NCBI GenBank assembly: GCA_001563875.1
Contig: LKMN01000006.1
Location: forward strand, 1-38,548
Direction of reading: 5' to 3'
DNA length: 38,548 bases
Origin: Nanohaloarchaea archaeon B1-Br10_U2g1
GTDB lineage: Archaea; Nanohalarchaeota; Nanosalinia; Nanosalinales; Nanosalinaceae
Part shown: positions 1,717-30,134 of the stretch, in pieces
How the letters are laid out: each line of letters opens with the position of its first letter
Numbering within the stretch: position 1 is the first letter of the stretch
Made by a program: the position numbers and the translations under genes
The notes under the pieces: model-generated
Told to the model about the DNA's origin: nothing
What the model saw: the letters and a program-made list of their open reading frames with translations, nothing else
Database searches by the model: none

Positions 1717-3120
1717 ATGATTGACAGGGCAGATGACCCGGACAACACACGGAAAGAAGATAGATCAGTATTCCAAAGAAACGCTGAAAGACTTAGAGCG
1801 GACGGAGGAACAATGGATGAGGGAACAGAAGACCTACCTCAGAAGACAAAAGGTGTAGAAACCACTCATGAAGAAGTAAGCTCTCAAAATGGAGAGTCAA
1901 CCCAGCAAGGGAACGGAAACAGTTCCGGAATAGTTGAGAAAGCGGAGAGAAGTGTCAAAGAGCTTATAGGCTCTAACAGACCGACAAGCATGTTCGGTAA
2001 ACAGACACCTACAGAAGAATCCAGAGAATCACATAAAGAAAGCTATGAATCAGGTCTAGATTTAGACCTGCAGGAAGCAAGTAAAGCAGTAGACAACGTA
2101 GGAGCAGATGTCCAAGACTGGAACAAAGACAGACAGGAACTCGAACTCACAATGCAGAAAGCAAGAATGGAGTTCGAAAGCAAACTCGGAGAGAGAACCA
2201 AAGCATTAGGTAAAGAGATAGGAAAAGTTCAGAGATGGGCGGAGTCGCCTCTAGACCAAGACCTCGCTTATGAAGCAGATCCTAACAGAGGTTCTTTCAG
2301 TTTCGGAGAGTATGAAGATCTTGGACTTTCAGAGTTTGTAGACGTTCTTTCAAACGAAGCAGAAGAAGCAGACCAGCTCTACACACACAGACAGGAACAG
2401 ATCGCTGAACTAGGAAAAGAGCTAGACCAAATGAAAAAGAACGATGTAGGAATCGAAGACTCTGAAGAGCTTGCAGCAAACAAAGGTATAGGAACTGACT
2501 CAAAAGAGATCTCAGACTACGAGAGAAGAGCAGTAAAGAGCAGAAGAAAAGAAGTATCTGACGAAATCGAGATGCACAGAAACAAGAAAGATGAGCACGA
2601 ACAGGACTTCGTTTCATACACAACTGAAGCAGAATCTGTCTACAGAGACCATGCTGCTGAAGTAGGTGACTACATTGCCGATGCTGCAGGAGCACTACAG
2701 GAGACAACAGAAATGCTTGAAGACTTCTCAGAGGTCGAAATACCTGTGATGGAGGATGAAATAGCAGATATAGCGCCTGAAGAAGTATCCGGCAAACTGC
2801 TTGATGATGGAGAACAAGAAGTAAGAGAAGAGTACAGAGACGCAGTCAACGCTTTAGGAGTCAAGGCCGCTCAACAGTACAAACAGGTTGAAAACGCATT
2901 GAACGAGCTTGAAGAAATTGAGGCAGGTATGGAAGATGACTACTTTGGAGATGTCAAGAGAAGCGACAAACTAAGAAGTAAGGTGGATGAAGTCTCAGGC
3001 AACGGAGATGCTTACGAACAACACTTGACAGAAACAGTGAATGAAGCTTTAGGAGATGAGTACGCGGCAAGTGACACAATTAGAAACGTATTCCGAGGTA
3101 TTGAGCCTGAAATAGAATAA
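1717..3120 (+). CDS. Large acidic coiled-coil protein, paralogue of 28893-30134
   Basis: Family not recognised; 467 residues. It starts MIDRADDP, followed by a polar, probably disordered region (about 1-85), the motif RPTSMFGKQ (about 90), then almost continuous charged helix with coiled-coil character. The C-terminal part holds ALGVKAAQQY, a helix with ENALNELEEIE, and DYFGDVKRSDKLRSKVDE. Each has a counterpart in the same order in the 413-residue protein at 28893-30134 (MIERADRP, RPTSRFGRQ, ALGETATDQY, RYFTGLSRSDKLRDVLD). No signal peptide, membrane helix or cysteine, so it is probably cytoplasmic. AGGTGA (1704-1709) lies 7 nt before the ATG, and TTTAATTA (1672-1679) could be the TATA box. 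Function unknown; a structural or scaffold role is a guess. Confidence 0.75.
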   Translation: MIDRADDPDNTRKEDRSVFQRNAERLRADGGTMDEGTEDLPQKTKGVETTHEEVSSQNGESTQQGNGNSSGIVEKAERSVKELIGSNRPTSMFGKQTPTEESRESHKESYESGLDLDLQEASKAVDNVGADVQDWNKDRQELELTMQKARMEFESKLGERTKALGKEIGKVQRWAESPLDQDLAYEADPNRGSFSFGEYEDLGLSEFVDVLSNEAEEADQLYTHRQEQIAELGKELDQMKKNDVGIEDSEELAANKGIGTDSKEISDYERRAVKSRRKEVSDEIEMHRNKKDEHEQDFVSYTTEAESVYRDHAAEVGDYIADAAGALQETTEMLEDFSEVEIPVMEDEIADIAPEEVSGKLLDDGEQEVREEYRDAVNALGVKAAQQYKQVENALNELEEIEAGMEDDYFGDVKRSDKLRSKVDEVSGNGDAYEQHLTETVNEALGDEYAASDTIRNVFRGIEPEIE

Positions 3121-11181: not shown

Positions 11182-13443
11182 ATGGCTGTAAGAGAAAAAG
11201 ACGTTTTCGAATACGAGTACGATGATGAGACAGGAACTATAGAGATCAATCTACTTGGATCTGTATACGGAGCATCTATAGAAGACTATCCTGAAGTGAT
11301 GTCTCGGGTAATAAACATTCTTCAGGAGGTGCCGGACGCATCGTCAGTAGTTCTGTCGGAATCCCGAGATTATGAATACAGTGATACTCAGGTAGAGATG
11401 CTTAAAGAGGTCGCAGAAGCCATAAGAGATATATCAAGTCAGGGATATATATCAAAAAACGTTAGAACTGATAAATGTGAGAGCCTTTACCAAGAAAAGC
11501 TTCCTGAGGTCCAAAGAATAGTTATAGACGACCTGAGAAAAGATCCGATAGGCGCATACGTACAGCTTAAACGTATGATACGCCATCTAAACCAGGAAAA
11601 AGAGGATTCATATCCTCAGAGAAAACGCTGTATAAAATACTTTATACAGGATGTTCTGAAACCGGTATCCGGACGTCTAGAGGAGACGCACTTAATACAG
11701 CAGTCTGTAGAGCTTGACTATATAACCGGCCACCATGTAGGAGACAGAGAGGTCTACAGAGAGTTCTTCCATCCTTTAGTAAGACCTAACTTCATGCTTA
11801 CAAAGTTCATGTCGTTGCCTCCTGAGAGAGGGGAGGAGGTTGACAGATACAGGGTTCAGGAAGATGTAGAGGTCTCGGTATACCGGGTCCCGGACCAGGT
11901 ACAGCCTATTTACCACGTGAATCCTCCAGAGTTCAATCTTCCTGAGGAAAAATATCGTTTGCTTGATGCGGCAAGAAGGTTTTTGGCCTCTCACAACCCG
12001 GAGTCAGGAGAGTTCGCTAGGCCCGAGAGAATGCGCCAAGTGTTCCAGAATATAGGAAGAGATATGGTCAGGGATATTTCCGACCAGATGGGTATACAGA
12101 TATCCGGAGAGGAGTTAGAACAGTTAACAGCAATACTTAACCGTTATACTTCAGGGCTCGGCGTGCTTGAACTACTTCTCTCTGATCCAAAGGTTCAGGA
12201 TGTTTATGTAAACTCTCCGATAGGTAATGCACCGATATATATCTCTCATCAGGACTACGAAGAATGTGAAACAAATCTAATCCCTACGAAAGAGGAGGCA
12301 GAGTCATGGGCCACAAGGTTCCGTATACAGTCAGGACGCCCGTTGGATGAAGCAAACCCTGTGCTGGATACGGATACAGAGGTTCCGGGAGGCCGTGCAC
12401 GTGTCGCAATAATACAGGAGAACCTTTCGCCTGAAGGGCTAGCGTTTGCGTTCAGAAGACACCGGTCCCGAGCCTGGACGCTACCATTGTTTGTTGACAG
12501 CGGAATGATTAACCCTCTAGGCGCAGGGCTTCTATCTTTCATTGTTGATGGAAACCGGTCGGTACTGTTTGCAGGTACTCGTGGCGCCGGTAAAACATCG
12601 CTCCTGTCAGCGTCGATGCTGGAGATACTGAAGAAACACAGAATTGTGACTGTTGAAGATACTTTAGAACTTCCTGTTAAACAGATGAAGGACTTAGGGT
12701 ATAACATAGAGAGTATGAAGTCTCGTTCTGTTATTACACAGGTTGAGAACGAGCTTGCTGCTGAAGAAGCAATTAGAACATCCTTGAGGCTTGGAGATTC
12801 TGCACTTGTTATTGGAGAGGTTCGTTCTGATGAGGCAAAAACTCTTTATGAGGCTATGCGTGTCGGAGCGGTCGCAAACTTTGTCGGAGGAACAATACAC
12901 GGTGAAGACGCTTATTCAGTATTCGACAGAGTCGTTAACGACCTAAATGTTCCAAAAACTTCTTTCAAGGCAACAGATATCATTGTAAGCGTAAACAAGA
13001 TCAAGAGTCCTGACGGCCTATCGACCTTTAGAAGGGTCACGGGAATAACAGAGGTTAGAAAAGAGTGGACTGATGACCCGCAGGAAGAAGGAGCGTTTGT
13101 AGATCTCATGCGGTACGACAGTAACGAAGACAAACTTGTGCCTACAGATACGCTGCTGAACGGCGAATCACTAGTTTTGAACAGGATAGCTAGTAATATC
13201 AGAGAATGGAAAAACAACTGGGAGGCAGTATGGGACAATATACAGCTCCGTAAGCAGATAAAACAAGACATTGTCCAAAAAGCAGAGGAAACAGATAATA
13301 AAGAACTTTTAGAGGCAGAATTCACTGTCAAATCAAATCAGAGATTCCATATACTTTCAGAGAGAGTTAGGGAGGAGTACGGCGAACAAAACACCGAAAG
13401 AGTTCTAGTAAGATGGAGAGAATGGCTAGAACAACAATTATAG
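11182..13443 (+). CDS. Type IV pilus/archaellum-type secretion ATPase
   Basis: Hexameric ATPase of the GspE/TadA/ArlI superfamily that powers pilin insertion at the inner face of the membrane. All motor motifs are visible: Walker A GTRGAGKT (465-472), Asp box VEDTLELP (491-498), Walker B LVIGEVR (542-548) and His box GTIHGED (570-576). The 753 residues exceed ArlI (about 530) because of a long N-terminal region (1 to about 250) that should bind partners. It is followed 9 bp later by the membrane platform and then the pilins, so it heads a long operon. Whether it drives pili, a secretion system or a motor is not shown. No retraction ATPase (PilT) or second ATPase is present in the window. Confidence 0.95.
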   Translation: MAVREKDVFEYEYDDETGTIEINLLGSVYGASIEDYPEVMSRVINILQEVPDASSVVLSESRDYEYSDTQVEMLKEVAEAIRDISSQGYISKNVRTDKCESLYQEKLPEVQRIVIDDLRKDPIGAYVQLKRMIRHLNQEKEDSYPQRKRCIKYFIQDVLKPVSGRLEETHLIQQSVELDYITGHHVGDREVYREFFHPLVRPNFMLTKFMSLPPERGEEVDRYRVQEDVEVSVYRVPDQVQPIYHVNPPEFNLPEEKYRLLDAARRFLASHNPESGEFARPERMRQVFQNIGRDMVRDISDQMGIQISGEELEQLTAILNRYTSGLGVLELLLSDPKVQDVYVNSPIGNAPIYISHQDYEECETNLIPTKEEAESWATRFRIQSGRPLDEANPVLDTDTEVPGGRARVAIIQENLSPEGLAFAFRRHRSRAWTLPLFVDSGMINPLGAGLLSFIVDGNRSVLFAGTRGAGKTSLLSASMLEILKKHRIVTVEDTLELPVKQMKDLGYNIESMKSRSVITQVENELAAEEAIRTSLRLGDSALVIGEVRSDEAKTLYEAMRVGAVANFVGGTIHGEDAYSVFDRVVNDLNVPKTSFKATDIIVSVNKIKSPDGLSTFRRVTGITEVRKEWTDDPQEEGAFVDLMRYDSNEDKLVPTDTLLNGESLVLNRIASNIREWKNNWEAVWDNIQLRKQIKQDIVQKAEETDNKELLEAEFTVKSNQRFHILSERVREEYGEQNTERVLVRWREWLEQQL

Positions 13444-13452
13444 GCGTTAAAA

Positions 13453-15606
13453 ATGGATGAAGATAGAGAGGACAAGATCAAAGACATAGTAGATAAGCTT
13501 GACAGAGATCTTGAGATGCCTCCCTACAATACGTCCTCGAAAGAGGGTTACTCTCGAGAATACCAGAAGTACAGGAAAGAGGAGAGAGAAGAGGTTGAAA
13601 CCTCAAGCTTTGAGGAGCTATGTCTGACTTCGGGAGACCTCCTAAACCTCAAAGCAGGTAAGAAGACCAGAGAACGTCTAGGACCTCCTCTAAGACTGCT
13701 GGGGTGGGATATAACACCTGGCATGGTTCTGTCTGCAGCCGTCATGGTGGGTTTCGTGTCATTCTTTGGATGGTTCTTGCTCTTCGCTTTAAATGCGTTT
13801 TTAGGTTTCTTTATTCCGATCTCTATAATCCTTATTTCAGTATTTATTCCGATAGGAGCCGGTGTTTATACCTATTTCAAGCCAATCTACCAGGCCGAGA
13901 ACAAGGTTATAAGGAGCAGCGGGGAGATGATCCTCACAATACTCTACATGGTCATCTACATGCGTAGCTCTCCAAACCTAGAAGGAGCTATCAGGTTTGC
14001 GGCATTAAATCTTGAAGGTCCTGTTTCAAAAGATCTTAGAGGCGTATTATGGGATTTAGAGGTTGGGAAGTACAATAAAATAGAAGAAGCGTTAGAGAAT
14101 TATACTGTTAGGTGGAAGGGTTACAACGACGACTTTCTTGAATCTTTACAGCTTCTTAAGGCTTCAGTAAACGAGCCAAGTCCTCAAAGAAGAGAAGATC
14201 TTCTACAGGACTCAATAGATCGTATACTTGAGGGCACACAGGAAAATATGAAGCACTATGCGCAGGGTCTCAAGACACCGGTAATGATACTTAACGCTGT
14301 TGGAGCTATGCTTCCGGTCCTAGGTATGATAATGTTGCCTCTTGTTTCTGTATTCCTCGGAGACTCTATCTCAGAGATGCATCTCATACTTCTCTTCAAT
14401 ATAATGCTTCCTGCATTCCTTTACTGGTTTATGCAGCGAATACTTTCTTCTAGACCACCTACAGTATCCTCAGAACCTACGAGTAATGGAAATCTGCCTC
14501 GTCTAGGTTATTATAACCTGGATTTATTTGGAAGAAGTTTTTCCGCACCTGTATGGCCCTTAGGAGTGCTTATATTTTCTATTGTTGGTCTTTATGGGGT
14601 TTTGGGATACGCAATTTTTCCTGAGGTCTATCCGGTCTCTGACGGAGCTGAATCCGCGCCCGCAATGTTTACGGATGGAGACTCTTACAGTCCATTAGCT
14701 ATGCTGATAAGAAGTCTAAGTATCACCGCAGGACTAGGATTAGCCATAGGTGTGGTTCTTTACATTGGAGGATTAGAGAGAAAGAAAGCTGAAGAAGAGA
14801 TAAGGAATATTGAGAAACAGTTCCCCACAGCGTTGTTCCAGTTAGGAAACAAGATTTCGGGCGGAACACCTATAGAATTAGCTCTGAAGCAGGCAAGAGA
14901 GTCGACAGAGGAGATGGAGATCTCAGGCTTATTCAGCTATACTCTCAGAAACATTACGGAGATGGGTATGACCTTTGATGAAGCGGTCTTTGATGAAGAC
15001 TACGGCGCTCTAAGGCACTATCCTAGTCAGATGATCCATACTGTTATGAAGGCGATTATGGAGTCCTCAGAGAAAGGTACTAAGATGGCTTCAATGGCGA
15101 TGATGACTATCTCAAGATACTTAGAGAACATACACCGTACACAAGAGAAACTGAATGATCTGATGGAAGAGACAACGACCACAATACTGATGCTTGGCTA
15201 TCTTTTAGCGCCTATTGTGTCTGGAGTAGCTGTAGGTATGAGCCAGACCATAATCACGGCTATGTTTGAGCTCTCTGAATCTTTCGATGACTCTATAGCA
15301 GGTACTCCTGAGGGCGACGTGGGAGATGCTGATACTGCGGCCGCAGGTGCAGACTTTTCGGGTATACTAGGTGACTTAGACGCTGCCATACCTCCTGAGG
15401 TGCTTCAGTTCGTTGTAGGTATATACTTGATACAGCTTTTATGGATACTAGGAACATTCTATACAAAGATTAGTGTTGGAGAAAACAAGACTGAGCGAAA
15501 TATCTTTGTAGGAAAAATACTTATTTCGGGAGTGTTCTTCTACAGTATAACGCTACTAATAGTAAGCTTGCTGTTTGGAGGCATAGTAACAAGCATAGAA
15601 CCATGA
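13453..15606 (+). CDS. ArlJ/TadC-type membrane platform with two T2SF domains
   Basis: 717 residues. Membrane helices at about 92-115, 117-140, 275-300, 308-330, 375-400, 415-440, 575-605, 650-670 and 685-715 surround two cytoplasmic T2SF bundles (about 150-270 and 460-570), the arrangement of archaeal ArlJ/PilC-like proteins. Conserved-looking segments are EMILTILYMVIYMRSSPNLE in the first and FPTALFQLGNKISGGTPIE in the second. The platform couples the ATPase to pilin polymerisation. An extracellular Ala/Gly/Asp-rich loop lies at about 615-645. Its stop overlaps the next ATG (ATGA), so the pilin-like genes are co-translated. Confidence 0.92.
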   Translation: MDEDREDKIKDIVDKLDRDLEMPPYNTSSKEGYSREYQKYRKEEREEVETSSFEELCLTSGDLLNLKAGKKTRERLGPPLRLLGWDITPGMVLSAAVMVGFVSFFGWFLLFALNAFLGFFIPISIILISVFIPIGAGVYTYFKPIYQAENKVIRSSGEMILTILYMVIYMRSSPNLEGAIRFAALNLEGPVSKDLRGVLWDLEVGKYNKIEEALENYTVRWKGYNDDFLESLQLLKASVNEPSPQRREDLLQDSIDRILEGTQENMKHYAQGLKTPVMILNAVGAMLPVLGMIMLPLVSVFLGDSISEMHLILLFNIMLPAFLYWFMQRILSSRPPTVSSEPTSNGNLPRLGYYNLDLFGRSFSAPVWPLGVLIFSIVGLYGVLGYAIFPEVYPVSDGAESAPAMFTDGDSYSPLAMLIRSLSITAGLGLAIGVVLYIGGLERKKAEEEIRNIEKQFPTALFQLGNKISGGTPIELALKQARESTEEMEISGLFSYTLRNITEMGMTFDEAVFDEDYGALRHYPSQMIHTVMKAIMESSEKGTKMASMAMMTISRYLENIHRTQEKLNDLMEETTTTILMLGYLLAPIVSGVAVGMSQTIITAMFELSESFDDSIAGTPEGDVGDADTAAAGADFSGILGDLDAAIPPEVLQFVVGIYLIQLLWILGTFYTKISVGENKTERNIFVGKILISGVFFYSITLLIVSLLFGGIVTSIEP

Positions 15607-15737
15607 AAGGAGAAAACATGATGATAATAGCTACCGTGTTTGCTGCAGCAACTATAGTAGCAGCTTTGATAGTACTAACCGTAATAGATGGGACGGTACA
15701 AAACATACTGGATGATGTGCTAACAGGACTTGGATAG
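15603..15737 (+). CDS. 44-residue pilin-like membrane peptide
   Basis: Starts MKGENMMIIATVFAAATIVA, with a hydrophobic helix to about residue 28, then a short acidic tail. MKG followed by E could be a minimal class III (prepilin peptidase) site, but E at +1 is atypical, so it may be an uncleaved membrane peptide. No cysteines. ATGA overlap with the platform gene and a 3-bp gap to the next pilin gene place it in the operon. Confidence 0.6.
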   Translation: MKGENMMIIATVFAAATIVAALIVLTVIDGTVQNILDDVLTGLG

Positions 15738-15740
15738 AAA

Positions 15741-15935
15741 ATGAAACGTAGAGGAGAAATGGGGATGCCGGTAAGAATTGTGGTGATGTTGGTGGCAGCT
15801 CTAGCAGTAGTTCTCATATTTTTAGCAGTGTTCATACCTGCAGTAGGTGGAGCAGAGGAGGCAACAGGCTGTGATGGAGCTCTAAGAGCGATATCGTCAG
15901 CAATAAGTAGTGCAATGGGAGAGCAGATATGCTAG
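15741..15935 (+). CDS. Small pilin-like protein with two cysteines
   Basis: 64 residues: basic MKRRGEMGMPVR, hydrophobic helix (about 13-36), then a short outer segment with cysteines at 44 and 64, the last residue. RRG is a possible class III cleavage site. The cysteine pair could form a loop disulfide. Gap to the previous gene is 3 bp, and its stop lies inside the next gene's first codons (7-nt overlap). Probably a minor pilin; function inferred from context only. Confidence 0.65.
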   Translation: MKRRGEMGMPVRIVVMLVAALAVVLIFLAVFIPAVGGAEEATGCDGALRAISSAISSAMGEQIC

Positions 15936-17965
15936 GAGGAACAAATTCTCGGAAAGGTTTGGCACAAACGGCGGTAGTAAAAATAGTGGGAATACTCCTA
16001 ATAGGTGCTATCGTGATCAGCGTAATAGGGTCTATAGGATCTGCTATAGCTGATACAGGCGATGCATTGATGGATTTCACAGGAACAAATGAGCATGTGG
16101 ATGTGGAGGAGAAGCACACGTTCATCTCAGCATCCAGATATGTCTATGATAGAGCGTGGGACTGTGAAGAGGTAGAACAGAACATATATCCTGGCTTGGA
16201 AGATACAGACTTTGGTGAAGAGCCTCGTTGTGCAGGTGTTTCAGGTACTGCGGCCGCATACTTTAGAAACATGGTTCCTGGGGAAGACACAGGAGGAGAT
16301 ATGGAGGGAAGAAACTCCCGTATAACCTTCGAGATATCAGAGGATGTCGAGGACAACATCACGATTAGTTCGGATCAGATATACGGTGACGAAGATAGTT
16401 TGCAGAAAGATGAAAGCTCTTCCACAACACTAGATGACTCTGAAGTCGCCTTCCGCGGTGTTTCAGACGACCGAAGTTTCTACCAAAGGACCGATCCTGA
16501 AAGAGATTGTGGAGGCACCGGCTATGGTAACTGGCACGATCCAGGAAATCCTAGATACTTTGTTGCCTTCGATATAATCGGTGAAACAAACAGGGTTAAC
16601 GAAATTGGAGAAGCAGAAAACCTTGACTCCGATATGCCTGTCTACTGTGAAGAAGCATTTGTAGGCGTTTCCGACTACATATATCGTTCCAGCATACAAT
16701 CTAAGTTGGATGGTGAGGACGGAAGTTTTGAATTAGTTCTATGTCCGGGAGATGAAGGATATATACAGGCCAATAAAGACAGTCCTTGGAATGAGGAAGA
16801 AGCTGCAGAAGACCACAGTATCTTCCCATTCATAGAAATCACCACCTTAGGGGAAGACTGTGTTGGACACGGTTTTGGTGACGTCGATGTTCCTGACAAG
16901 CTTCCTGACGATTTAAAGACTTCAGGAAGACTGCTCCATGTAACAGGAGACTCTTCAGAAGATCATCCTTACGTTAGAGGACCTGGTTTAAGTGGAGGAG
17001 CTACGGATTATGCTTTCGACCTGTTCGAACTCAGTGAGGAAAATACAGAGGTTAGTAGTACCATAAGCTCCAAATCTCGTAACATAGATTTTGGACATAA
17101 TCCTCAGAGAGCGGAGGAATGTGTTCTAGGCTTATGGAACCACCATGGAGTAAACCCTGCGCCAGGCTGGGTTAGTTACGAGCAAGGAACAGCTGTGGAG
17201 AGAGACGGAACTTTCCCGGATCTGGAAAGTGAGGACGTGAAAGGCCAGTCTCTTGAAGACAGAAACTATGGTCCTGATGCAGAAGATCTATATAACCTGT
17301 ATGCTCAAGAGGGATTCGTCGGAGGTAGCTGGGGTAGCGATATCTCAGATAAGATCCTGAATGATTTCACTGGAGAACAGAGATTTGAGACATACGGAGA
17401 CCTTCTATGCGCGCCTGACAAGAGAGATGAGGCTCAGGATTTTGAGAACGACCATGCAACATGGTATATGTGTGGAGGAGATCATGGAGTAAACGAGATT
17501 GAAATTAATGAGAAAAAATGGGTCTGTGATGAGGATTCGGGGGCTTGGCTGGAAGAGAGACCTGAAGATTTTGTAGAAATTAACGTTGTTGAGACCGAGC
17601 CGGAAGAGATAGATGAACTGAACATTGGTGACGAGGCAGTCTTTGAGTTGGAGATCTCTGGTAGCGGTTTTGATATGTCGGACGTAGGATTAAACTACAT
17701 TAGACTTGATGATGAGGGTGATGAGGTAAGAGGCGGTTCTGCGGATGATGCTAACTTTGAGACGTCTTCAGATTCAGGAGTAGACTATGAAGCAACGGTT
17801 GCTGAGACCTTAGAAGGCGATAAAGAAGAAGGAGTTCTTGAATGGCCTACATATAATGTTGACGAGGTGGAGGCTGAAGACTTCGTAGGATTTTATCTGA
17901 ACGTTCAAGAGGAAGAAATGGGCAGAGTTGGTGAAAAAAAGGTTGAGATAGACCTGACAGAGTGA
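15929..17965 (+). CDS. Very large class III pilin-like protein with ten cysteines
   Basis: 678 residues. The N-terminus has SRKG then LAQTAVVKIVGILLIGAIVI, a canonical archaeal class III signal (cleavage after KG, then hydrophobic helix, about 11-40). The large ectodomain is very acidic and rich in aromatic residues, Gly and Asp, with ten cysteines (an even number). The last 120 residues (about 560-678) have alternating hydrophobic positions suggestive of one beta-sandwich (Ig-like) domain beginning VEINVVETEPEEID. Archaeal pilins are usually 100-250 residues, so this may be a tip adhesin or pilin-anchored surface protein. No enzyme motif seen. Overlaps the preceding gene by 7 nt. Confidence 0.75.
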   Translation: MLGGTNSRKGLAQTAVVKIVGILLIGAIVISVIGSIGSAIADTGDALMDFTGTNEHVDVEEKHTFISASRYVYDRAWDCEEVEQNIYPGLEDTDFGEEPRCAGVSGTAAAYFRNMVPGEDTGGDMEGRNSRITFEISEDVEDNITISSDQIYGDEDSLQKDESSSTTLDDSEVAFRGVSDDRSFYQRTDPERDCGGTGYGNWHDPGNPRYFVAFDIIGETNRVNEIGEAENLDSDMPVYCEEAFVGVSDYIYRSSIQSKLDGEDGSFELVLCPGDEGYIQANKDSPWNEEEAAEDHSIFPFIEITTLGEDCVGHGFGDVDVPDKLPDDLKTSGRLLHVTGDSSEDHPYVRGPGLSGGATDYAFDLFELSEENTEVSSTISSKSRNIDFGHNPQRAEECVLGLWNHHGVNPAPGWVSYEQGTAVERDGTFPDLESEDVKGQSLEDRNYGPDAEDLYNLYAQEGFVGGSWGSDISDKILNDFTGEQRFETYGDLLCAPDKRDEAQDFENDHATWYMCGGDHGVNEIEINEKKWVCDEDSGAWLEERPEDFVEINVVETEPEEIDELNIGDEAVFELEISGSGFDMSDVGLNYIRLDDEGDEVRGGSADDANFETSSDSGVDYEATVAETLEGDKEEGVLEWPTYNVDEVEAEDFVGFYLNVQEEEMGRVGEKKVEIDLTE

Positions 17966-17987
17966 TCTGTGAAACTTAAGGAAAAGA

Positions 17988-17997
17988 AGTTATAAGA
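17988..17997 (+). promoter_or_regulatory. Possible internal TATA box ahead of 18021 pilin
   Basis: AGTTATAAGAG centred about 28 bp before the ATG at 18021, in the only sizeable gap (55 bp) of the pilin operon. It would give a leaderless transcript for the small pilins at 18021-21415, separate from the ATPase transcript. Confidence 0.45.
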
Positions 17998-18020
17998 GAA
18001 AAAATACAGTAAGTTCTTGT

Positions 18021-18179
18021 ATGTTAGAAAGGAAGGGCCAGACTATTTCGATAAGTACACTAGCCAAGCTTGTTCTGGCTTTAGTTGTCCTGGCCGTAGT
18101 TGTCTTTATCGCTCAAAGCCAGATTGGGCCTATGGTTGATGATGCTGTATCTTCTATTCTGGCACACCAACCGCAGTAG
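18021..18179 (+). CDS. Small class III pilin-like protein
   Basis: 52 residues: MLERKG then QTISISTLAKLVLALVVLAV. The KG-Q cleavage motif followed by a hydrophobic helix is the textbook archaeal prepilin form. Only about 18 residues follow the helix (SQIGPMVDD to HQPQ), too few for a folded head. Such bare-helix pilins may fill the filament core. No cysteines. Confidence 0.72.
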   Translation: MLERKGQTISISTLAKLVLALVVLAVVVFIAQSQIGPMVDDAVSSILAHQPQ

Positions 18180-18212
18180 GTTATTTCAATCAGATAGAGA
18201 CAATGTTTATCT

Positions 18213-18365
18213 ATGAATCTGTCTATAAACACGCTCATAGTGATACTTCTAGGAGTGATAGTGATCTCTGTGGTAGGATTTTTAGTTACAGACCAAGTAA
18301 TAGATTTCCGTTACTTTGCGTTAGACGAGATAGATGCAGTTAACCTAGTGCCTGGAGGTAGTTAG
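18213..18365 (+). CDS. Small single-helix membrane protein in pilin cluster
   Basis: 50 residues: MNLSINTLIVILLGVIVISV and a hydrophobic helix to about residue 24, then an acidic 26-residue tail with DFRYFALDEIDA. No KG/RG site, so perhaps not processed like a prepilin. No cysteines. An ATG at 18202 opens another frame with no helix and is discounted. Three bases separate its stop from the next gene. Confidence 0.6.
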   Translation: MNLSINTLIVILLGVIVISVVGFLVTDQVIDFRYFALDEIDAVNLVPGGS

Positions 18366-18368
18366 CAT

Positions 18369-18572
18369 ATGAAGCCTATTCATGTAGTGGTCATGATTGT
18401 TCTGGCTTTAATTGTAGTATCTGCTTTATCCGCAGTTATGATAGGTGTTGAGTCTCCTCTTACATCAATTTTATCTAACTCTTCTGAGACCCAGACAGGT
18501 GTATCTCAGTGTCTAGACCAAAATCCTGACTACTCGTACCAAGACTGTCTCAGAGAGGTTGAAAACTCATGA
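18369..18572 (+). CDS. Small pilin-like protein with two cysteines
   Basis: 67 residues. MKPIH precedes a hydrophobic helix (about 6-30), and the short outer part carries SQCLDQNP and YQDCLREVE, two cysteines 12 residues apart that could form a disulfide loop. No clear class III cleavage site. Stop overlaps the next start (ATGA). Probably a minor pilin-like subunit. Confidence 0.65.
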   Translation: MKPIHVVVMIVLALIVVSALSAVMIGVESPLTSILSNSSETQTGVSQCLDQNPDYSYQDCLREVENS

Positions 18573-19021
18573 AAAAAGGTATAGCCGTCACTTCCAGCGT
18601 ATTCATACTTGTTACAGGAATAACCGCTATATTCGGGTTTGGGTTCGCCGTAGGTGTTATAGATAACTTTCTAGGTATGGAGTCTGATCTCCAGCAAAGC
18701 GAACAGCTTCATAACCTTCATGATAGTTTAGAAAATGCCTGCAGTAACGCTGAGGAGTTCGGAACCTTTTCAGATACTACTGAGGAGTACGAGTTTCCAT
18801 ATCTTGTCTCTCTAGGCGAAGAGAGCAATAGGTTTAGAGCGGAATTTGAAGAAGATGGTGAAACAGAGATTTGGGGCCCTGAACCGGTTGAAGGAGAGCT
18901 TGTGGAGTGCGACCTAGATATACAAGAGTTAACTGAAGAAGGAGCCTACAGATTTGAAATAGAGTCAAGTAACGGTGAAAATCCTACAGTTCAGGTTGAG
19001 CCGGTTGATGGAGATGCGTAA
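18569..19021 (+). CDS. Class III pilin-like protein with two cysteines
   Basis: 150 residues. MKKG then IAVTSSVFILVTGITAIFGF: cleavage after KKG, hydrophobic helix to about 30, heptad-like helix to about 60, then a beta-rich acidic head. Cysteines at ENACSN and VECDLD (two). The following gene starts 8 nt before its stop, in another frame. Likely a minor pilin of the same filament. Confidence 0.75.
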   Translation: MKKGIAVTSSVFILVTGITAIFGFGFAVGVIDNFLGMESDLQQSEQLHNLHDSLENACSNAEEFGTFSDTTEEYEFPYLVSLGEESNRFRAEFEEDGETEIWGPEPVEGELVECDLDIQELTEEGAYRFEIESSNGENPTVQVEPVDGDA

Positions 19022-19400
19022 GGGAGTAGTAGACGCAGGCGTAATAATACTGGTAGGCTTCGTTATATCGGCTATACTTCTTGCTGTACCCAACCAGTTG
19101 ATAACCTCTTCAGGAGAGTTCATAACTGAAGACGTGGCCGAACACCATCTAGAGCAGATAGGAAACAGCGTAATGGTTGTAGAGGATGAGGAAGAACAGT
19201 ATATTGAGGTCGATCTACCAGAATATGAAATAATTGTTGTGGAGAATAGTGTGGGGTTGAGGAGAGGACAGATAGAGGTTTCAAAAGAAATAGATTACAA
19301 TATACAGGGCCCTGATAGTTATGAGAGAATAGACGACGTTCTATGCGTTAAGCATAAGGGAAGTTACACGGATATAAAGGTTGAGAGGTGTTCAGACTGA
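19014..19400 (+). CDS. Class III pilin-like protein with two cysteines
   Basis: 128 residues from the ATG at 19014, chosen because it places RKG directly after Met (MRKG then VVDAGVIILVGFVISAIL); an in-frame ATG at 18975 would add 13 residues copying the previous gene's region. Hydrophobic helix about 5-28, then a beta-rich head with two C-terminal cysteines (DVLCVKH and ERCSD). Overlaps the next gene, which starts with GTG inside it, by 13 nt. Confidence 0.75.
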   Translation: MRKGVVDAGVIILVGFVISAILLAVPNQLITSSGEFITEDVAEHHLEQIGNSVMVVEDEEEQYIEVDLPEYEIIVVENSVGLRRGQIEVSKEIDYNIQGPDSYERIDDVLCVKHKGSYTDIKVERCSD

Positions 19401-19876
19401 CAGAGTTTTATGAGAAGATCGAGTACATAGTTGTAGCATTTACTTTAGCGATCGCACTTTATCTGATTATAGCAGGATCTGTCACAGTTTTTCTAGAGTC
19501 TAGCGAGACCGCGACAGAAACCATTTCGGAGAGGTCGCACAACCATCTAGTTCTTGAAGATCTTCTCAATGCTGAGAAAGATACTCCAAGAGCGGTGTTT
19601 ACATCTGATTTTATACTTGATGAGGATAATATTGACTTTAGAGAGGTCAACGGAGAAGAGCACTGTTATATCGAACAAGTATCCGGTCTTGATGGAGAAC
19701 GGTCTGGCTTCGGCTTTATTGAGCAGGGAGTACCTTCTGGAGAGATATCCGGATCCGAAATCTTCGATAGATGTGCTCGTACTGAGCTTTCAGGTACTGA
19801 TCCTTCATCAAGAGTTCTTCTAAAAGATGGTGAAACAAGTTATCTTCCGGGGGTGGTAGTATATGAGATATCGTAA
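19388..19876 (+). CDS. Pilin-like single-helix protein with two cysteines
   Basis: 162 residues, GTG start. A charged N-terminus (FRLTEFYEKIEY) leads to a hydrophobic helix (about 14-34), a heptad-like linker and a beta-rich head ending LPGVVVYEI. Two cysteines (EEHCYIEQ, DRCARTEL). It lacks a KG site, so the leader is odd for a prepilin and the protein may remain a plain type II membrane protein. It overlaps both neighbours (13 and 14 nt). Confidence 0.65.
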   Translation: MFRLTEFYEKIEYIVVAFTLAIALYLIIAGSVTVFLESSETATETISERSHNHLVLEDLLNAEKDTPRAVFTSDFILDEDNIDFREVNGEEHCYIEQVSGLDGERSGFGFIEQGVPSGEISGSEIFDRCARTELSGTDPSSRVLLKDGETSYLPGVVVYEIS

Positions 19877-20387
19877 AGGTAAAACTGATATAATAGGATA
19901 CCTGTTCCTTTGGGGTATCACAATTACGTTTACAGTGGTGATAACGCTTTCTCTGCTAGCTGCTGACGGTATTGGCATGGCCGATCTGGGTGCTGAAGTC
20001 GAGTTAGAGTCTGAAAGCCAGAACCACCACTCTATGATGGGCACTTTAATCTACGGCGAACTAGCCCGTACGGAAGGTTTAGAGGATTACGGCGATAAGA
20101 CGTTCGAAGAAGTATTATCTCTGTATCTGTCTTCTGATGAAGACCTTTCAGTGAACGGTCAGAGAATCGATAAGGGAGAGGTCAGAGAAGATCTTGAAAC
20201 ATATTTTGACAACAGAAGAAGCTCCACATTCGCATCTCAGGTCATGGGCTACCGCCTCGATATTCTAGCTGAGAACGATCCGGAGTCTTTCGGTGATGTA
20301 GATTCTGAAGAGACACAGATCGCCACTCATCAACTGAAACTTGAAAACGGTACAGCAACATTAATACTGGTGCAGGGTGGAAGATAA
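19863..20387 (+). CDS. Class III pilin-like protein without cysteines
   Basis: 174 residues: MRYRKG then KTDIIGYLFLWGITITFTVV. RKG cleavage site, hydrophobic helix about 10-34, then a helical, acidic domain rich in Leu, Tyr and Arg (about 60-140) and a beta-rich tail. No cysteine, unlike most neighbours. Its stop codon TAA (20385-20387) abuts the start-less signal peptide of the next pilin. Confidence 0.75.
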   Translation: MRYRKGKTDIIGYLFLWGITITFTVVITLSLLAADGIGMADLGAEVELESESQNHHSMMGTLIYGELARTEGLEDYGDKTFEEVLSLYLSSDEDLSVNGQRIDKGEVREDLETYFDNRRSSTFASQVMGYRLDILAENDPESFGDVDSEETQIATHQLKLENGTATLILVQGGR

Positions 20388-21415
20388 TCGGAGGTAAAAG
20401 AGGGCTAGCAACAGTAACTATAGGAATAATACTGCTTTTCACAAGTATAGCAACGCCTGCAATAATGATGGCGTACTCCCAAGAACTTGGAGGAACCTCA
20501 GAGTATATTGCGGATGATGTAAACAGGATAGCGGATACAGAAACAGCTAAATCAAATCATATAGACTCGACAAAACCTTTGGAGCTTAAATATGTTAAAA
20601 ATAACAAGTCGGTAAAACTTTCAGAAGAGGGCGGAAACGCTGAATGGGACAACAGAGGACTACCTGACCTGATAACTGAGAATTATGCGGGAGAAACCGT
20701 AGAGAATCTAAAAAACAGCTCTGAAGAACTCCTAGAAGACGAAGGAGTGTCCACAGATGTAAGGACCTGCAGATCAGATTCTAGGAACATGAGCATAGAC
20801 CTCAGCAATACGCCTCATCTTTCCGGAGAGATGGTTACAGAAAACGTTACGACAAACTGCCGGTTCAACTCTGGAGACGTAGAACTTGTTGAAACAGATA
20901 TTGTAACAGAGTTTGAAACGCACAACCGTTATCCGGAGTTGGCTTACTCCTCAAGAGAGTTATTTGAGGATTTTGCTTCAAATCTAGCGAATAAGGAGTT
21001 CGAAGATATAGGTGAAGGCTCTAACTGTGGGTCGAGGACTGCTGCAGAGAATGAAGCCGAAGATGATGCCGAGGATAAAGGCGATGAACGAGTTAGAGAG
21101 GCTTGGGACAGCGCAGTCGACTCTTGGAACAGCGCTAACAGTGTTGTGGTTAAGGAAGAGGAGATTCTTCAAAAGGTTAGCGATCCTGATTCAACCGCAA
21201 GCAGAGAGAGATGGTGTAACTGTGACTGTGACGAGGACGAGTCTAGAGGCAGTTCCTGCTGCGATCCTTATTATGAAGACGATTCTGCCGATTACAATCC
21301 TCAGAGAACGGACACTCTACTAGAGATGAGGGATGACGATGAGAAGATCTTTTACGACGGAAGGGCTAAAGACCTGAGTTTTCTGGTCGATGAGTACAGT
21401 CATTACTTCGACTGA
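20384..21415 (+). CDS. Class III pilin-like protein, no standard start codon
   Basis: Translating upstream of the first ATG (20465) continues an open frame back to ATA ATC GGA GGT AAA AGA GGG CTA at 20384, which reads GGKRG then LATVTIGIILLFTSIATP. This is a complete class III signal: basic KRG, hydrophobic helix. Starting at 20465 would delete the cleavage site and the helix. No ATG, GTG or TTG exists in frame between the previous gene's stop and this motif; the likeliest start is ATA at 20384, overlapping the TAA stop. A G at 20386 would restore ATGA. The 343-residue protein has 8 cysteines (four after residue 270 in a CNCDC and CC cluster) and an acidic helical body. Confidence 0.65.
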   Translation: MIGGKRGLATVTIGIILLFTSIATPAIMMAYSQELGGTSEYIADDVNRIADTETAKSNHIDSTKPLELKYVKNNKSVKLSEEGGNAEWDNRGLPDLITENYAGETVENLKNSSEELLEDEGVSTDVRTCRSDSRNMSIDLSNTPHLSGEMVTENVTTNCRFNSGDVELVETDIVTEFETHNRYPELAYSSRELFEDFASNLANKEFEDIGEGSNCGSRTAAENEAEDDAEDKGDERVREAWDSAVDSWNSANSVVVKEEEILQKVSDPDSTASRERWCNCDCDEDESRGSSCCDPYYEDDSADYNPQRTDTLLEMRDDDEKIFYDGRAKDLSFLVDEYSHYFD

Positions 21416-21496
21416 TATCTACGCCTAACTTGGTTATAGAGCCTGAGAGCGTATCAAAGGTAATGTTAAAAGTCTTCAGTTCTTTTCTTAGAACAG

Positions 21497-21790
21497 GTGA
21501 ACAACACAGTGGCAGAACAAGAAGACGATAACACAGTATACGTAGGTTCAAAACCTGCAATGAGCTATGTATTAGCTGTAGTAACGCAGTTTAGTGAAGG
21601 ACAGGAGACAGTACACATTAAAGCTAGAGGAAAAGCAATTAGCCGTGCAGTTGACGTAGCTGAAATGGTTCAAAGAAAGTTTGTAGAAGATTCTGAAGTC
21701 GAAGATATAACGATCGACACGGACCAGATAGAGACTGATGAAGGAGAAGAGTTAGACGTCTCAAGCATCCAAATCGATATGGCTAAGTAG
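21497..21790 (+). CDS. albA: Alba-family DNA/RNA-binding chromatin protein
   Basis: 97 residues. YVGSKPAMSYV (15-25) and IKARGKAISRAVDVAEMVQ (about 39-57) match Alba, a small dimeric chromatin protein of archaea also able to bind RNA. In Sulfolobus the site is GKKP with two lysines; here the first is Ser (S18) and the second is kept (K19), so the acetylation-target lysine may be missing. GTG codons lie in frame at 21497 and 21509; the latter gives a start MAEQEDD closer to family length. The C-terminus is unusually acidic. It is a housekeeping gene inserted between pilin groups. Confidence 0.93.
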   Translation: MNNTVAEQEDDNTVYVGSKPAMSYVLAVVTQFSEGQETVHIKARGKAISRAVDVAEMVQRKFVEDSEVEDITIDTDQIETDEGEELDVSSIQIDMAK

Positions 21791-21830
21791 AACCTTAACG
21801 GTTCTTCTTCCACTATTTTTCTACACCATA

Positions 21831-21838
21831 TTTTTATA
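21831..21838 (+). promoter_or_regulatory. TATA box for the 21861 pilin unit
   Basis: TTTTTATA centred 26 bp before the GTG at 21861, downstream of alba, which suggests a leaderless transcript covering the two pilins 21861-22481. Confidence 0.6.
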
Positions 21839-21860
21839 CAGAGGTAAACAAGAGAATCTT

Positions 21861-22169
21861 GTGAAAAGAAAAGGGGTATCACAAGTACTTTCATTGATAG
21901 TTGCTGCAGCAGTACTGATGATGGCTGCACTTACACTGATAATACTGGTAACCGGAGGCCTAGGAGACTTCGGAGCAGACCTATTTGGAGGAACATGCTC
22001 AGGAGCAATAGAGTCATCATGTCAGGCTCAAGGCGGAGGAACCGTTTCGATACCGTCCTCTTGTTTGACCGGAGGAGAACTAACAGAAGAGGCCAATCAG
22101 TTTGATATGACCAGCAATTACAATATAGATCTTGATGATGGAGAAGTAGCTTGCGCGCCACAAGAGTAA
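21861..22169 (+). CDS. Class III pilin, four cysteines
   Basis: 102 residues, GTG start. MKRKG then VSQVLSLIVAAAVLMMAALT: the RKG-VSQ signal is shared with the pilin at 22823. The TM helix ends in LVTGGLGDFGADLFGG, echoed in its neighbours (FGDLGDW, AGELGEW), so three adjacent pilins look paralogous. Four cysteines in the outer part, enough for two disulfides. Probable pilin of an independent unit with its own TATA box. Confidence 0.82.
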   Translation: MKRKGVSQVLSLIVAAAVLMMAALTLIILVTGGLGDFGADLFGGTCSGAIESSCQAQGGGTVSIPSSCLTGGELTEEANQFDMTSNYNIDLDDGEVACAPQE

Positions 22170-22187
22170 GGAGATCAGGTTTCAAAA

Positions 22188-22481
22188 ATGGACAAAACTG
22201 TAGAGATACTTGTTGTAGTTGTTGTAGCGTTGATAGCGGCAACAATTGTAATATTTCTCTTAACAGATCAGACTGATGGGTTCGCAGAGTTTGTAGGAGA
22301 TTCAACGGAAGACTCTGAATGCAGGATAGCTGAAGCACAGTTCGGACAATCTCTCACATGTGACGGAACTGATTTTGAGACAGGAGAATATCAGGAGATA
22401 TACGAAGAACACGATCACTGTGACTGGGCTCAGGACTTCCAAGGAGCTGTTGAAGCAAGAGACAGCTACTGCGGCGAATAA
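22188..22481 (+). CDS. Pilin-like protein with four cysteines
   Basis: 97 residues: MDKTVEILVVVVVALIAATI hydrophobic helix to about residue 26, then an acidic tail of about 70 residues with four cysteines. No KG site. It follows the preceding pilin by 18 bp and has an AGG-type ribosome site, so the two are probably one transcript. Could be an anchored surface peptide rather than a filament subunit. Confidence 0.68.
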   Translation: MDKTVEILVVVVVALIAATIVIFLLTDQTDGFAEFVGDSTEDSECRIAEAQFGQSLTCDGTDFETGEYQEIYEEHDHCDWAQDFQGAVEARDSYCGE

Positions 22482-22497
22482 GATCTCAGCTCTAGAG

Positions 22498-22505
22498 AAT
22501 TTATA
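22498..22505 (+). promoter_or_regulatory. TATA-like box for the 22534 pilin
   Basis: TTTATATG occurs about 32 bp before the ATG at 22534. The same TTTATATG core recurs at 22790-22797, about 29 bp before the ATG at 22823, so the two single-gene pilin units have matching promoters. Confidence 0.5.
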
Positions 22506-22533
22506 TGTAGGCAGTCCAATTAACTAAATTACA

Positions 22534-22779
22534 ATGCCAACAAAAGGGATGTCAGCAACACTTGCTGTCGTGGTGGCCGCTGCAGTAATACTTGTAACCG
22601 CGGCAGGCGTGATAATGATGTTCCAGACAAGTGCAGGAGAGCTTGGAGAATGGATCGATACAGAAACAGGTGAGGCCGACTGTTATGGCCTTCAGACGCA
22701 GTACCAAGGCGGAAACGATGAGGCCTTAGCAGAGGCTGAGTCCGAAGGCTGCCAATGGGCCGACGAAGTAGACGACTAG
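22534..22779 (+). CDS. Class III pilin, two cysteines
   Basis: 81 residues. MPTKG then MSATLAVVVAAAVILVTAAG: TKG cleavage site, hydrophobic helix about 6-28, then a short acidic outer domain with cysteines at ADCYG and EGCQW. AGELGEW matches a motif in the flanking pilins. It has its own TATA-like box and no close upstream partner, so it is probably monocistronic. Confidence 0.78.
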   Translation: MPTKGMSATLAVVVAAAVILVTAAGVIMMFQTSAGELGEWIDTETGEADCYGLQTQYQGGNDEALAEAESEGCQWADEVDD

Positions 22780-22789
22780 CTAAAATCAT

Positions 22790-22797
22790 TTTATATG
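22790..22797 (+). promoter_or_regulatory. TATA-like box for the 22823 pilin
   Basis: TTTATATG, identical in core to the box at 22498-22505, about 29 bp before the ATG at 22823. It supports the ATG at 22823 as start of a leaderless mRNA. Confidence 0.5.
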
Positions 22798-22822
22798 GGT
22801 ATTTAACCATTAATAGAATACA

Positions 22823-23047
22823 ATGGTCTATTCAAGACTGATGAAACTGATTCTACAGAGATGCGTTCTGGTTCTTGAGACAAGGAAAGGTGTCTCTCAG
22901 ACCCTGGCTATACTAGTGGCTGCGGCTGTACTGCTTATGACGGCAACTACTATGATAGTGGTTATACAGGGAGGTTTCGGAGATCTAGGTGACTGGCTGA
23001 ACCCTGTATTTGATGATCCTGAAGCCCAAACCGGTTTAGACGATTAA
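22823..23047 (+). CDS. Class III pilin with long leader
   Basis: 74 residues. The signal site TRKG then VSQTLAILVAAAVLLMTATT starts after a 23-residue leader; an in-frame ATG at 22841 would shorten it to 17. The TM helix is followed by a 25-residue acidic tail with FGDLGDWLNP and PEAQ. The only cysteine is in the leader and would be removed, leaving none. The stop is immediately next to that of gpmI on the other strand, with no gap. Confidence 0.75.
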   Translation: MVYSRLMKLILQRCVLVLETRKGVSQTLAILVAAAVLLMTATTMIVVIQGGFGDLGDWLNPVFDDPEAQTGLDD

Positions 23048-25587: not shown

Positions 25588-26976
25588 ATGGCAGAAGATG
25601 TAATATTCGGGGAAGATGAGGAAGAAACTGAACAAGAAACCCTTTTTAGTGCAGAAGAGAAAGAAGAGACGAAGGATGAAGACACACTCTTCGAAGAAGA
25701 CGAAGAAAAGGATGAAGACGAAAGTTTAGATAACGAAACTGAAGAGGAAGATGTGCTGTTCGGCGAGGAAGACGAAGAGCTGCCAGATGAACAAGAAGAT
25801 ATTGAATATGAAACAGAGGATTCTGAAGAAAGCCAAAATATTAGTGAAGAATCAACAGCGGACGAAGAGGTTCCAGAAGCGTCCGAAGATAGAATAAGCG
25901 ATATAGAAGATAAAATAAAAGAACTTGAAGAAAACCATTCTATAGAAAACATATCATCTCGTTTAAACAAAATGGAGGAAAGATTAGATGATTTGAACGA
26001 TTCTTCAGAGGCCGGAGAGACGGAAGAGCTAAAAGAAGATGTTAATGATCTTAAAACGCTTACAAACGATTTGGAGAACGAGATTAAGGAGCTAGATGTA
26101 GAAAAAGAGGTAGAACAGGTTAAAGAGCGTCTAGCTGAGAAATCCTCTCTCATAAAGGATATCAAACAGAGTCATGAAGAAAAGCTGTCACATACAGAAG
26201 AAAAAATAGACGAAATTGCTCAAGAGGACTCAGAACAACTTCAACAAAGAATCAAGGAACTCGAAGAAGATATCGAGTCTCTTGAAAACAGAGGTGCAGA
26301 AGACGTAGACGACCTAGAAAAGAGGTTTGAAGAGCTCGAAGAAAGTATAGATGCCTTAGAAGACAGTGAAGAAGGGAGTCGGGAAGAAATAGAAAACAGA
26401 GTAGCAGAGCTTCAAAAAGATATTGACTCTCTGAAAGACGATAAGGAAAAAGTTGAGGAGCTAGAGGGTCGTGTTGAAGAGATCGAAGAAGATAAACTGG
26501 GAGAGCTCAAAATAGAGATACAGAACCTTGAGAACCGGTTAGAAGCGATGGAGGAACAAAGAGAGGAAGAAGATCTAACAAAGCTTAAGGAGCAGGTCGA
26601 ACACCTCAAGGGAATGGTCTCTGACTTCCAATGGATATTCAATGATTTCGATGATCTTGTAAACCTCAAACTCCTTACAAAAGAAGAGTATGAACAGTTA
26701 AAAGACGGTGGAGAAGACCAGGAAGACGTCCTAGAGCAGATTAATACCAATCTTCAAAGACTGGTAACCGAAATCGGTACTGAAAACGAACTCGAAAAAA
26801 GGTTACGGAAACTTGAGGAACAAGGTCTAAAGGAGAAGGAGTCTCAGGATCAAGACTTACAGATGGTTCTTGATGAAATAGAGAGGCAGGAAGAAGAGAT
26901 ACAGGAAATCCGAGAAGGTTACCAAGAGCTTGGCGAGATGATGAAGCTAGTTCTAGAAGAGCTTAGATCTCGCTAA
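25588..26976 (+). CDS. Very acidic coiled-coil protein with four LF motifs
   Basis: Not recognised; 462 residues. The N-terminal 85 residues are almost all Asp/Glu but contain four short motifs: DVIFGED (4-10), ETLFSAE (17-23), DTLFEED (32-38) and DVLFGEE (55-61), spaced 13-23 residues apart. Such repeated Phe/Leu spots in a disordered acidic chain look like multivalent docking motifs. Residues about 100-460 are coiled coil; a break near 340-375 (DFQWIFNDFDDLVNLKLL) is more hydrophobic and may bind a partner. No cysteine. Begins 49 bp after the preceding coiled-coil gene with AGAGGT upstream; probably co-transcribed. Confidence 0.7.
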   Translation: MAEDVIFGEDEEETEQETLFSAEEKEETKDEDTLFEEDEEKDEDESLDNETEEEDVLFGEEDEELPDEQEDIEYETEDSEESQNISEESTADEEVPEASEDRISDIEDKIKELEENHSIENISSRLNKMEERLDDLNDSSEAGETEELKEDVNDLKTLTNDLENEIKELDVEKEVEQVKERLAEKSSLIKDIKQSHEEKLSHTEEKIDEIAQEDSEQLQQRIKELEEDIESLENRGAEDVDDLEKRFEELEESIDALEDSEEGSREEIENRVAELQKDIDSLKDDKEKVEELEGRVEEIEEDKLGELKIEIQNLENRLEAMEEQREEEDLTKLKEQVEHLKGMVSDFQWIFNDFDDLVNLKLLTKEEYEQLKDGGEDQEDVLEQINTNLQRLVTEIGTENELEKRLRKLEEQGLKEKESQDQDLQMVLDEIERQEEEIQEIREGYQELGEMMKLVLEELRSR

Positions 26977-28892: not shown

Positions 28893-30134
28893 TCATGCCT
28901 GAACGGCGTTTCTTACGGTCTCCTGTATATAATCGTCATAGTCTTCTCCTATTGAAGTGTCTAAGACATCTCTCAGCTTATCTGAACGACTTAAGCCGGT
29001 AAAGTATCTTTCAGGCAGCTCCTCTTCAATCTGCTCTAGATGCTGTATAGGCTTTTCAAGTGTTCTGTACTGGTCGGTAGCTGTTTCGCCAAGCGCCTGA
29101 ATAGTCTCTTGATACTGGTCTCTTATATGGTCTTCAGCGTCGTCTAGAAGCCGTTTATCGATATTGTAGGAAGCATTCAGCTCTGTAAGGAGGTCTCTTG
29201 GACTGTCGTCTGCAAGTTTTTCAAGTAAAGTTACGGTTCTCTTGAGGTCTCGAGACATCTCTACAGTATATGTCTCAAGTTCATTGGCTTGAACGTCATA
29301 GAAATCTTCTAAAGTATCTCTCAGCTCTATGAAACGGCTCTCTAATCTGTTTCTCTTCGTAACGTTATCGTTTATGCTTTCATAGAGCTCTTCATCCACT
29401 ACATAGTTTACTGCTTTCGATTCGTATTTCTTTATTTCTTCGGAGTCTGATCCCAGCCCTTTCACAGTTCTTTCAGGTGCGGGCTCCTTTTCCCTGCCTA
29501 GTTTTTCTACCTGTTTTCCCTGTTTTGCAAGTGCTTCCTGTATCTGGGCGAACTTCCTGTCTATATTCTGTAATGGAAATGAAACGGCTCTTACAAACTC
29601 TAAGGAGCTGAGTCCGTCTTCATCTCTAAAGCTGTACGTCTCATTCAGTATTTCAGGTTCCTCTAGCGAGGTATCTTCTGCCCATCTCTTGGTCTGACCT
29701 AGCTCCCTACTTATTTCACGAGTCTTCGCGGCTATACTACTTTCCAGTTCTGTTCTGACTCCCTGCATCTTAAGTTCGGATTCTTCACGCTCTCTTTCCC
29801 AGTCTTTCAGATGGAAGCGCCCTCTCTCTACTGATCTGCTAGCGTCCGTAAAGCTTAACCTCTCTTCAGTGGCTAGAGCGTTATCAAACGATTCTTGAGC
29901 AGTATCTGAGGCTTTCTGTCTCCCGAAACGAGAGGTAGGTCGCATGTTGTCAAAGAATCTTTCAAGACTGTTCTCTACACGTTCCTCGGTGTCTTTTGAG
30001 GCTTTGAGCCTCTCCAGGTCTTCGCCAGGCGTTCTATCTGGTTTTTCTGAGCCGTCTCCTAAAACCTGGTCTGACTCGTCTAGTTCGCTCGTTGTATGGC
30101 TGGCTACTGAAGGTCTGTCGGCTCTTTCAATCAT
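28893..30134 (-). CDS. Acidic helical protein, paralogue of 1717-3120
   Basis: 413 residues, family not recognised. Same order of landmarks as the 467-residue protein: MIERADRP start, RPTSRFGRQ (66-74), a long Glu/Arg/Lys helical body, GLGSDSEEIKKYESKAV (compare GIGTDSKEISDYERRAV), ALGETATDQYRTLEKP, then RYFTGLSRSDKLRDVLD near the end. Total identity by eye is modest but clear in blocks. No cysteine, signal or membrane helix. GAGGAAAG precedes the ATG. Two copies 26 kb apart imply an old duplication or a lineage-specific family. Confidence 0.75.
   Translation of the reverse strand: MIERADRPSVASHTTSELDESDQVLGDGSEKPDRTPGEDLERLKASKDTEERVENSLERFFDNMRPTSRFGRQKASDTAQESFDNALATEERLSFTDASRSVERGRFHLKDWEREREESELKMQGVRTELESSIAAKTREISRELGQTKRWAEDTSLEEPEILNETYSFRDEDGLSSLEFVRAVSFPLQNIDRKFAQIQEALAKQGKQVEKLGREKEPAPERTVKGLGSDSEEIKKYESKAVNYVVDEELYESINDNVTKRNRLESRFIELRDTLEDFYDVQANELETYTVEMSRDLKRTVTLLEKLADDSPRDLLTELNASYNIDKRLLDDAEDHIRDQYQETIQALGETATDQYRTLEKPIQHLEQIEEELPERYFTGLSRSDKLRDVLDTSIGEDYDDYIQETVRNAVQA

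Follow-up and report, generated by a model that had tools for sequence, protein, structure and literature searches.

Why do the cysteines of the pilin-like proteins encoded in this locus of Nanohaloarchaea archaeon B1-Br10_U2g1 come in even numbers? The window, by which we mean the whole stretch of 38,548 nucleotides analysed (contig LKMN01000006.1), had been described in a first-pass annotation as encoding fifteen such proteins, whose even counts were ascribed to paired disulfides and taken to imply exported oxidative folding. We re-read the reading frames and found 15 pilin-like proteins between the TadC/FlaJ gene and a phosphoglycerate mutase gene, in a run interrupted by the gene for Alba, which had rightly been excluded from the pilin set (Table 1). 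The mature cysteine counts agreed with the earlier ones in the same order. If the 38 cysteines are placed randomly by length across the 15 proteins, the probability that every count is even is about 2e-4, a post hoc figure.

Table 1. Coordinates of the pilus locus features in the window, and of a membrane protein gene beside DsbA in other loci
Feature	Position	Strand	Mature Cys	Basis or observation
Coiled-coil-like protein	1717-3120		0	large, charged
Pilus assembly ATPase (T2SSE/VirB11-like)	11182..13443	+		PF00437, E 3.2e-15
TadC/FlaJ-type membrane platform	13453..15606	+		PF00482, E 1.4e-6
p1, tiny pilin-like	15603..15737	+	0	N-terminal hydrophobic segment, count
p2	15741..15935	+	2	one Cys is the final residue; both conserved in 10/10 aligned loci
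p3, large pilin-like	15929..17965	+	10	four invariant among relatives, others vary (totals 6-12)
p4	18021..18179	+	0	count
p5	18213..18365	+	0	count
p6	18369..18572	+	2	relatives: 0 or 2
p7	18569..19021	+	2	count
p8	19008..19400	+	2	faint DUF7266 similarity, under cut-off
p9	19388..19876	+	2	both Cys conserved in 6/6 aligned members
p10	19863..20387	+	0	most relatives 0; two have 2 or 4
p11, large pilin-like	20360..21415	+	8	includes CxCxC...CC cluster; start non-canonical or uncertain
Alba	21497-21790			PF01918, E 5e-22
p12, small pilin	21861..22169	+	4	N-terminus the most conserved
p13	22188..22481	+	4	relatives: 2-8
p14	22534..22779	+	2	count
p15	22823..23047	+	0	count after RKG site; one leader Cys
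Coiled-coil-like protein	25588-26976		0	large, charged
Coiled-coil-like protein	28893-30134		0	large, charged
Multi-helix membrane protein beside DsbA	L001 972-1490			CAxC/CxxC-type pair
Multi-helix membrane protein beside DsbA	L110 953-1486			CAxC/CxxC-type pair
Multi-helix membrane protein beside DsbA	L114 2039-2560			CAxC/CxxC-type pair

As in Tad-like archaeal type IV pili, an assembly ATPase and a TadC/FlaJ-type platform are encoded in the locus, the pilin-like proteins combine a short leader with one N-terminal hydrophobic helix, and the genome encodes a prepilin peptidase (PF01478, C23:9827). All 15 proteins have a single N-terminal hydrophobic segment; an RKG or KG site is present in several of them, and the classical site is absent from others. 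Only p15 has a leader cysteine, upstream of its RKG site. For the pilins scanned, Pfam and NCBIfam gave no match above the cut-off. Since subunits as diverged as these are expected to miss profiles, we did not take the missing match as excluding membership. The conserved N-terminus of p12 makes it a likely major subunit. The frame of p11 overlaps the p10 stop and has no ATG, GTG or TTG ahead of the hydrophobic segment (positions 20345-20465); a rare start codon or an assembly error may be the reason, and the cysteine count of p11 is unaffected by the uncertain start. The pilus genes are flanked by genes for large, cysteine-free, coiled-coil-like proteins.

Of 60 related genomes, 39 hold an orthologue or homologue of the platform protein; a scan by name places the family within Nanohaloarchaea, where the orthologues share 57-74% identity. 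We compared 12 syntenic loci of this family, in which the pilin run is largely conserved in order, after excluding locus L037 (G005) for its masked bases. The first-pass annotation had named odd counts in homologues as evidence against its proposal. Among the 143 pilins of the 12 loci, all 99 that contain cysteines have an even number, from 2 to 16. Soluble proteins of the same loci were 25 even and 33 odd (Fisher 2e-18 for pilins versus soluble proteins, the homologues not being independent). The numbers themselves shift: the p12 slot is constant (four cysteines in 11/11), and the slots of p3, p11 (4-16) and p13 are variable. Mapped onto the FlaJ tree, the counts require a minimum of 25 changes, every one of them an even step; gene order served in part to assign the slots. 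In two sister genomes p12 has lost its second cysteine and gained another, so that the total stays four. In L044 the p3 gene is split, and its pieces hold 2 and 6 cysteines. The Alba gene keeps its position inside the pilin run in relatives. We also observed that p11 and, less so, its neighbours (18569-21415) are closer to distant genomes (e.g. L038, L043 and L045) than to the same-genus L033, in contrast to FlaJ, which is nearest to L033. This discrepancy suggests that pilin cassettes may have been exchanged within a conserved locus.

We then looked beyond the family. Among the pilin-like proteins of other DPANN and Nanohaloarchaeota loci, 63 were even and 6 odd. One of the six (L093) is truncated by the locus edge, in those of L072 (23) and L096 (1) a cysteine lies within the membrane helix, and three have no such explanation. 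In one distant genome, two neighbouring pilins were odd (15 and 5). Pilin-like proteins of distant DPANN (L050, L086, L093) contain up to 20-42 cysteines apiece, and the premise that archaeal pilins are cysteine-poor thus fails in this group. As a baseline for exported proteins, we used a sample of about 140 kb of this genome together with the window. Other single-helix exported proteins with cysteines were even in 11 of 11 cases, and the sampled soluble proteins were 30 even and 52 odd. In the pilins of a separate family (Pilin_N) in the same genomes, two cysteines is the usual number. Even parity is thus a general trait of exported proteins in this organism, and the pilus is not special in this respect. 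The strict parity contrasts with a survey that found practically no genome-wide bias toward even cysteine numbers in halophilic archaea (PMC3177088), a survey not confined to exported proteins.

A search for the DsbA- or VKOR-type oxidase that oxidative folding would call for found both in the genome. The DsbA is membrane-anchored, carries CPFC (PF13462, E 1e-24) and has BdbD as its best relative among solved structures; the VKOR (E 4.8e-26) carries CTWC. All 19 family genomes encode a DsbA-type thioredoxin, and 16 of them encode VKOR (clear in 5) or DsbB (in 13). The genomes with neither are 85, 77 and 68% complete, and all those at least 89% complete have one. DsbB adjoins DsbA in several relatives that have no VKOR. 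In several distant DPANN genomes, DsbA was unrecognised despite their even, cysteine-rich pilins. In several genomes DsbA has as its neighbour a small membrane protein with multiple helices and a CAxC/CxxC-type pair (CAAC, CAGC; Table 1). It matched no Pfam family above the cut-off and may act as another thiol oxidase or as an electron carrier.

Our best explanation, in which taken as a whole we have high confidence, is that a type IV pilus of the DPANN type (Tad-like), made up of about 15 pilins and minor pilins, is encoded here, and that its subunits carry intrachain disulfides made by a general extracytoplasmic oxidative folding. Each pilin would be exported and then cleaved by the prepilin peptidase, and each cysteine-bearing subunit would fold outside the membrane. 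The BdbD-like DsbA, anchored in the membrane, would oxidise the cysteines of each chain to disulfides within it; the electrons would pass to VKOR in this organism and to DsbB in relatives. Cysteines would be gained and lost in pairs because an exposed unpaired thiol is costly in the extracytoplasmic compartment, and the counts would stay strictly even while the sequences diverge. As read from the sequences, internal disulfides formed extracellularly very probably stabilise the filaments. The earlier proposal of paired disulfides and exported oxidative folding is thus well supported by parity conserved through changing counts, by the near-lack of CxxC and by the presence of DsbA and VKOR; a restriction of the parity to the pilus is not supported, the other sampled exported proteins being even as well. 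AlphaFold2 models built from shallow alignments (pLDDT 46 for p3 and 68 for p12) were too weak to place the cysteines. Foldseek found no usable match to these models in the PDB, and a p3 profile gave a single insignificant match there. The distant DPANN genomes that combine cysteine-rich pilins with no recognised DsbA, and the two neighbouring odd pilins, speak against the explanation.

The even count of each chain is what self-contained bonds predict, and it points to bonds within subunits. The first-pass annotation had suggested mechanically locked subunits; interchain disulfides between neighbouring subunits would lock the filament covalently. The conserved cysteine at the very C-terminus of p2 would suit such an arrangement, and the adjacent odd pilins of the distant genome could bond together. 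We nevertheless consider interchain locking unlikely, since in this family each chain has an even count by itself and pairs come and go within a single chain, for which interchain bonds have no need. Binding of zinc or of iron-sulfur would likewise favour even counts, and the dense cluster of p11, with its CxCxC and CC, could bind metal. Most of the cysteine-bearing pilins, however, carry just two cysteines, which in the window lie 12-56 residues from each other; none of the window pilins contains CxxC, and this motif holds at most 8 of the 440 pilin cysteines of 13 loci. Strict parity with shifting counts, wide spacing and near-absent CxxC fit disulfides better, and metal sites are a very improbable account of the pattern. 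That chance, or a reader's eye for a striking pattern, produced the even counts is scarcely credible and is refuted by the relatives, as the window's probability was post hoc but the pattern recurs in 12 more loci with zero odd counts.

The even counts matter in two ways. Even cysteine parity offers a strong and cheap signature of pilins in DPANN loci whose subunits defeat profile searches, and the surface machinery of these cells, which are probably host-dependent, is likely to require oxidative folding. It is possible, if somewhat short of probable, that disulfide-rich pili needing exported oxidative folding, with up to about 40 cysteines per subunit, are common to host-dependent DPANN and serve as symbiont contact machinery, in parallel to CPR bacteria.

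Several elements of this picture have precedents. One archaeal pilus is already established to contain a disulfide: the cryo-EM structure of the Pyrobaculum arsenaticum type IV pilus shows a pilin with an intrachain Cys80-Cys139 bond (PMC7347861). That pilus, however, comes from a hyperthermophile and has one pilin with one bond, whereas most of a pilin set is concerned here, in a halophilic DPANN lineage. In the type IV pilus systems of Thermoproteales subclade 4G, nearly all components have multiple conserved cysteines and predicted disulfides (Makarova 2016, PMC4858521); lineage and components are different, and the parity rule and the link to an oxidase are absent from the portion of that account on which we draw. 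Type IV pilus loci with ATPase, TadC and coiled-coil genes have been described in Nanohaloarchaeota and other DPANN (Hamm 2024, PMC11291902), and the locus here is probably of the same type. The coiled-coil-like protein at 25588, which is syntenic in relatives, may be a counterpart of the coiled-coil proteins in that study. In the part of its text considered here, filament proteins are given for Locus 1 only, whereas about 15 pilins are described here, and cysteines and disulfides are unmentioned. CPR bacteria resemble the present case in combining small genomes, type IV pili, an exported MdbA-like thiol oxidoreductase and VKOR (PMC6744442), but they are bacteria, and gene content rather than cysteine parity led to the proposed link. 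Thus, a disulfide in an archaeal pilus, predicted disulfide-rich type IV pili, DPANN pilus loci and the CPR parallel of pili, oxidoreductase and VKOR are already known, and the probably disulfide-bonded pilins described here are a variant on these.
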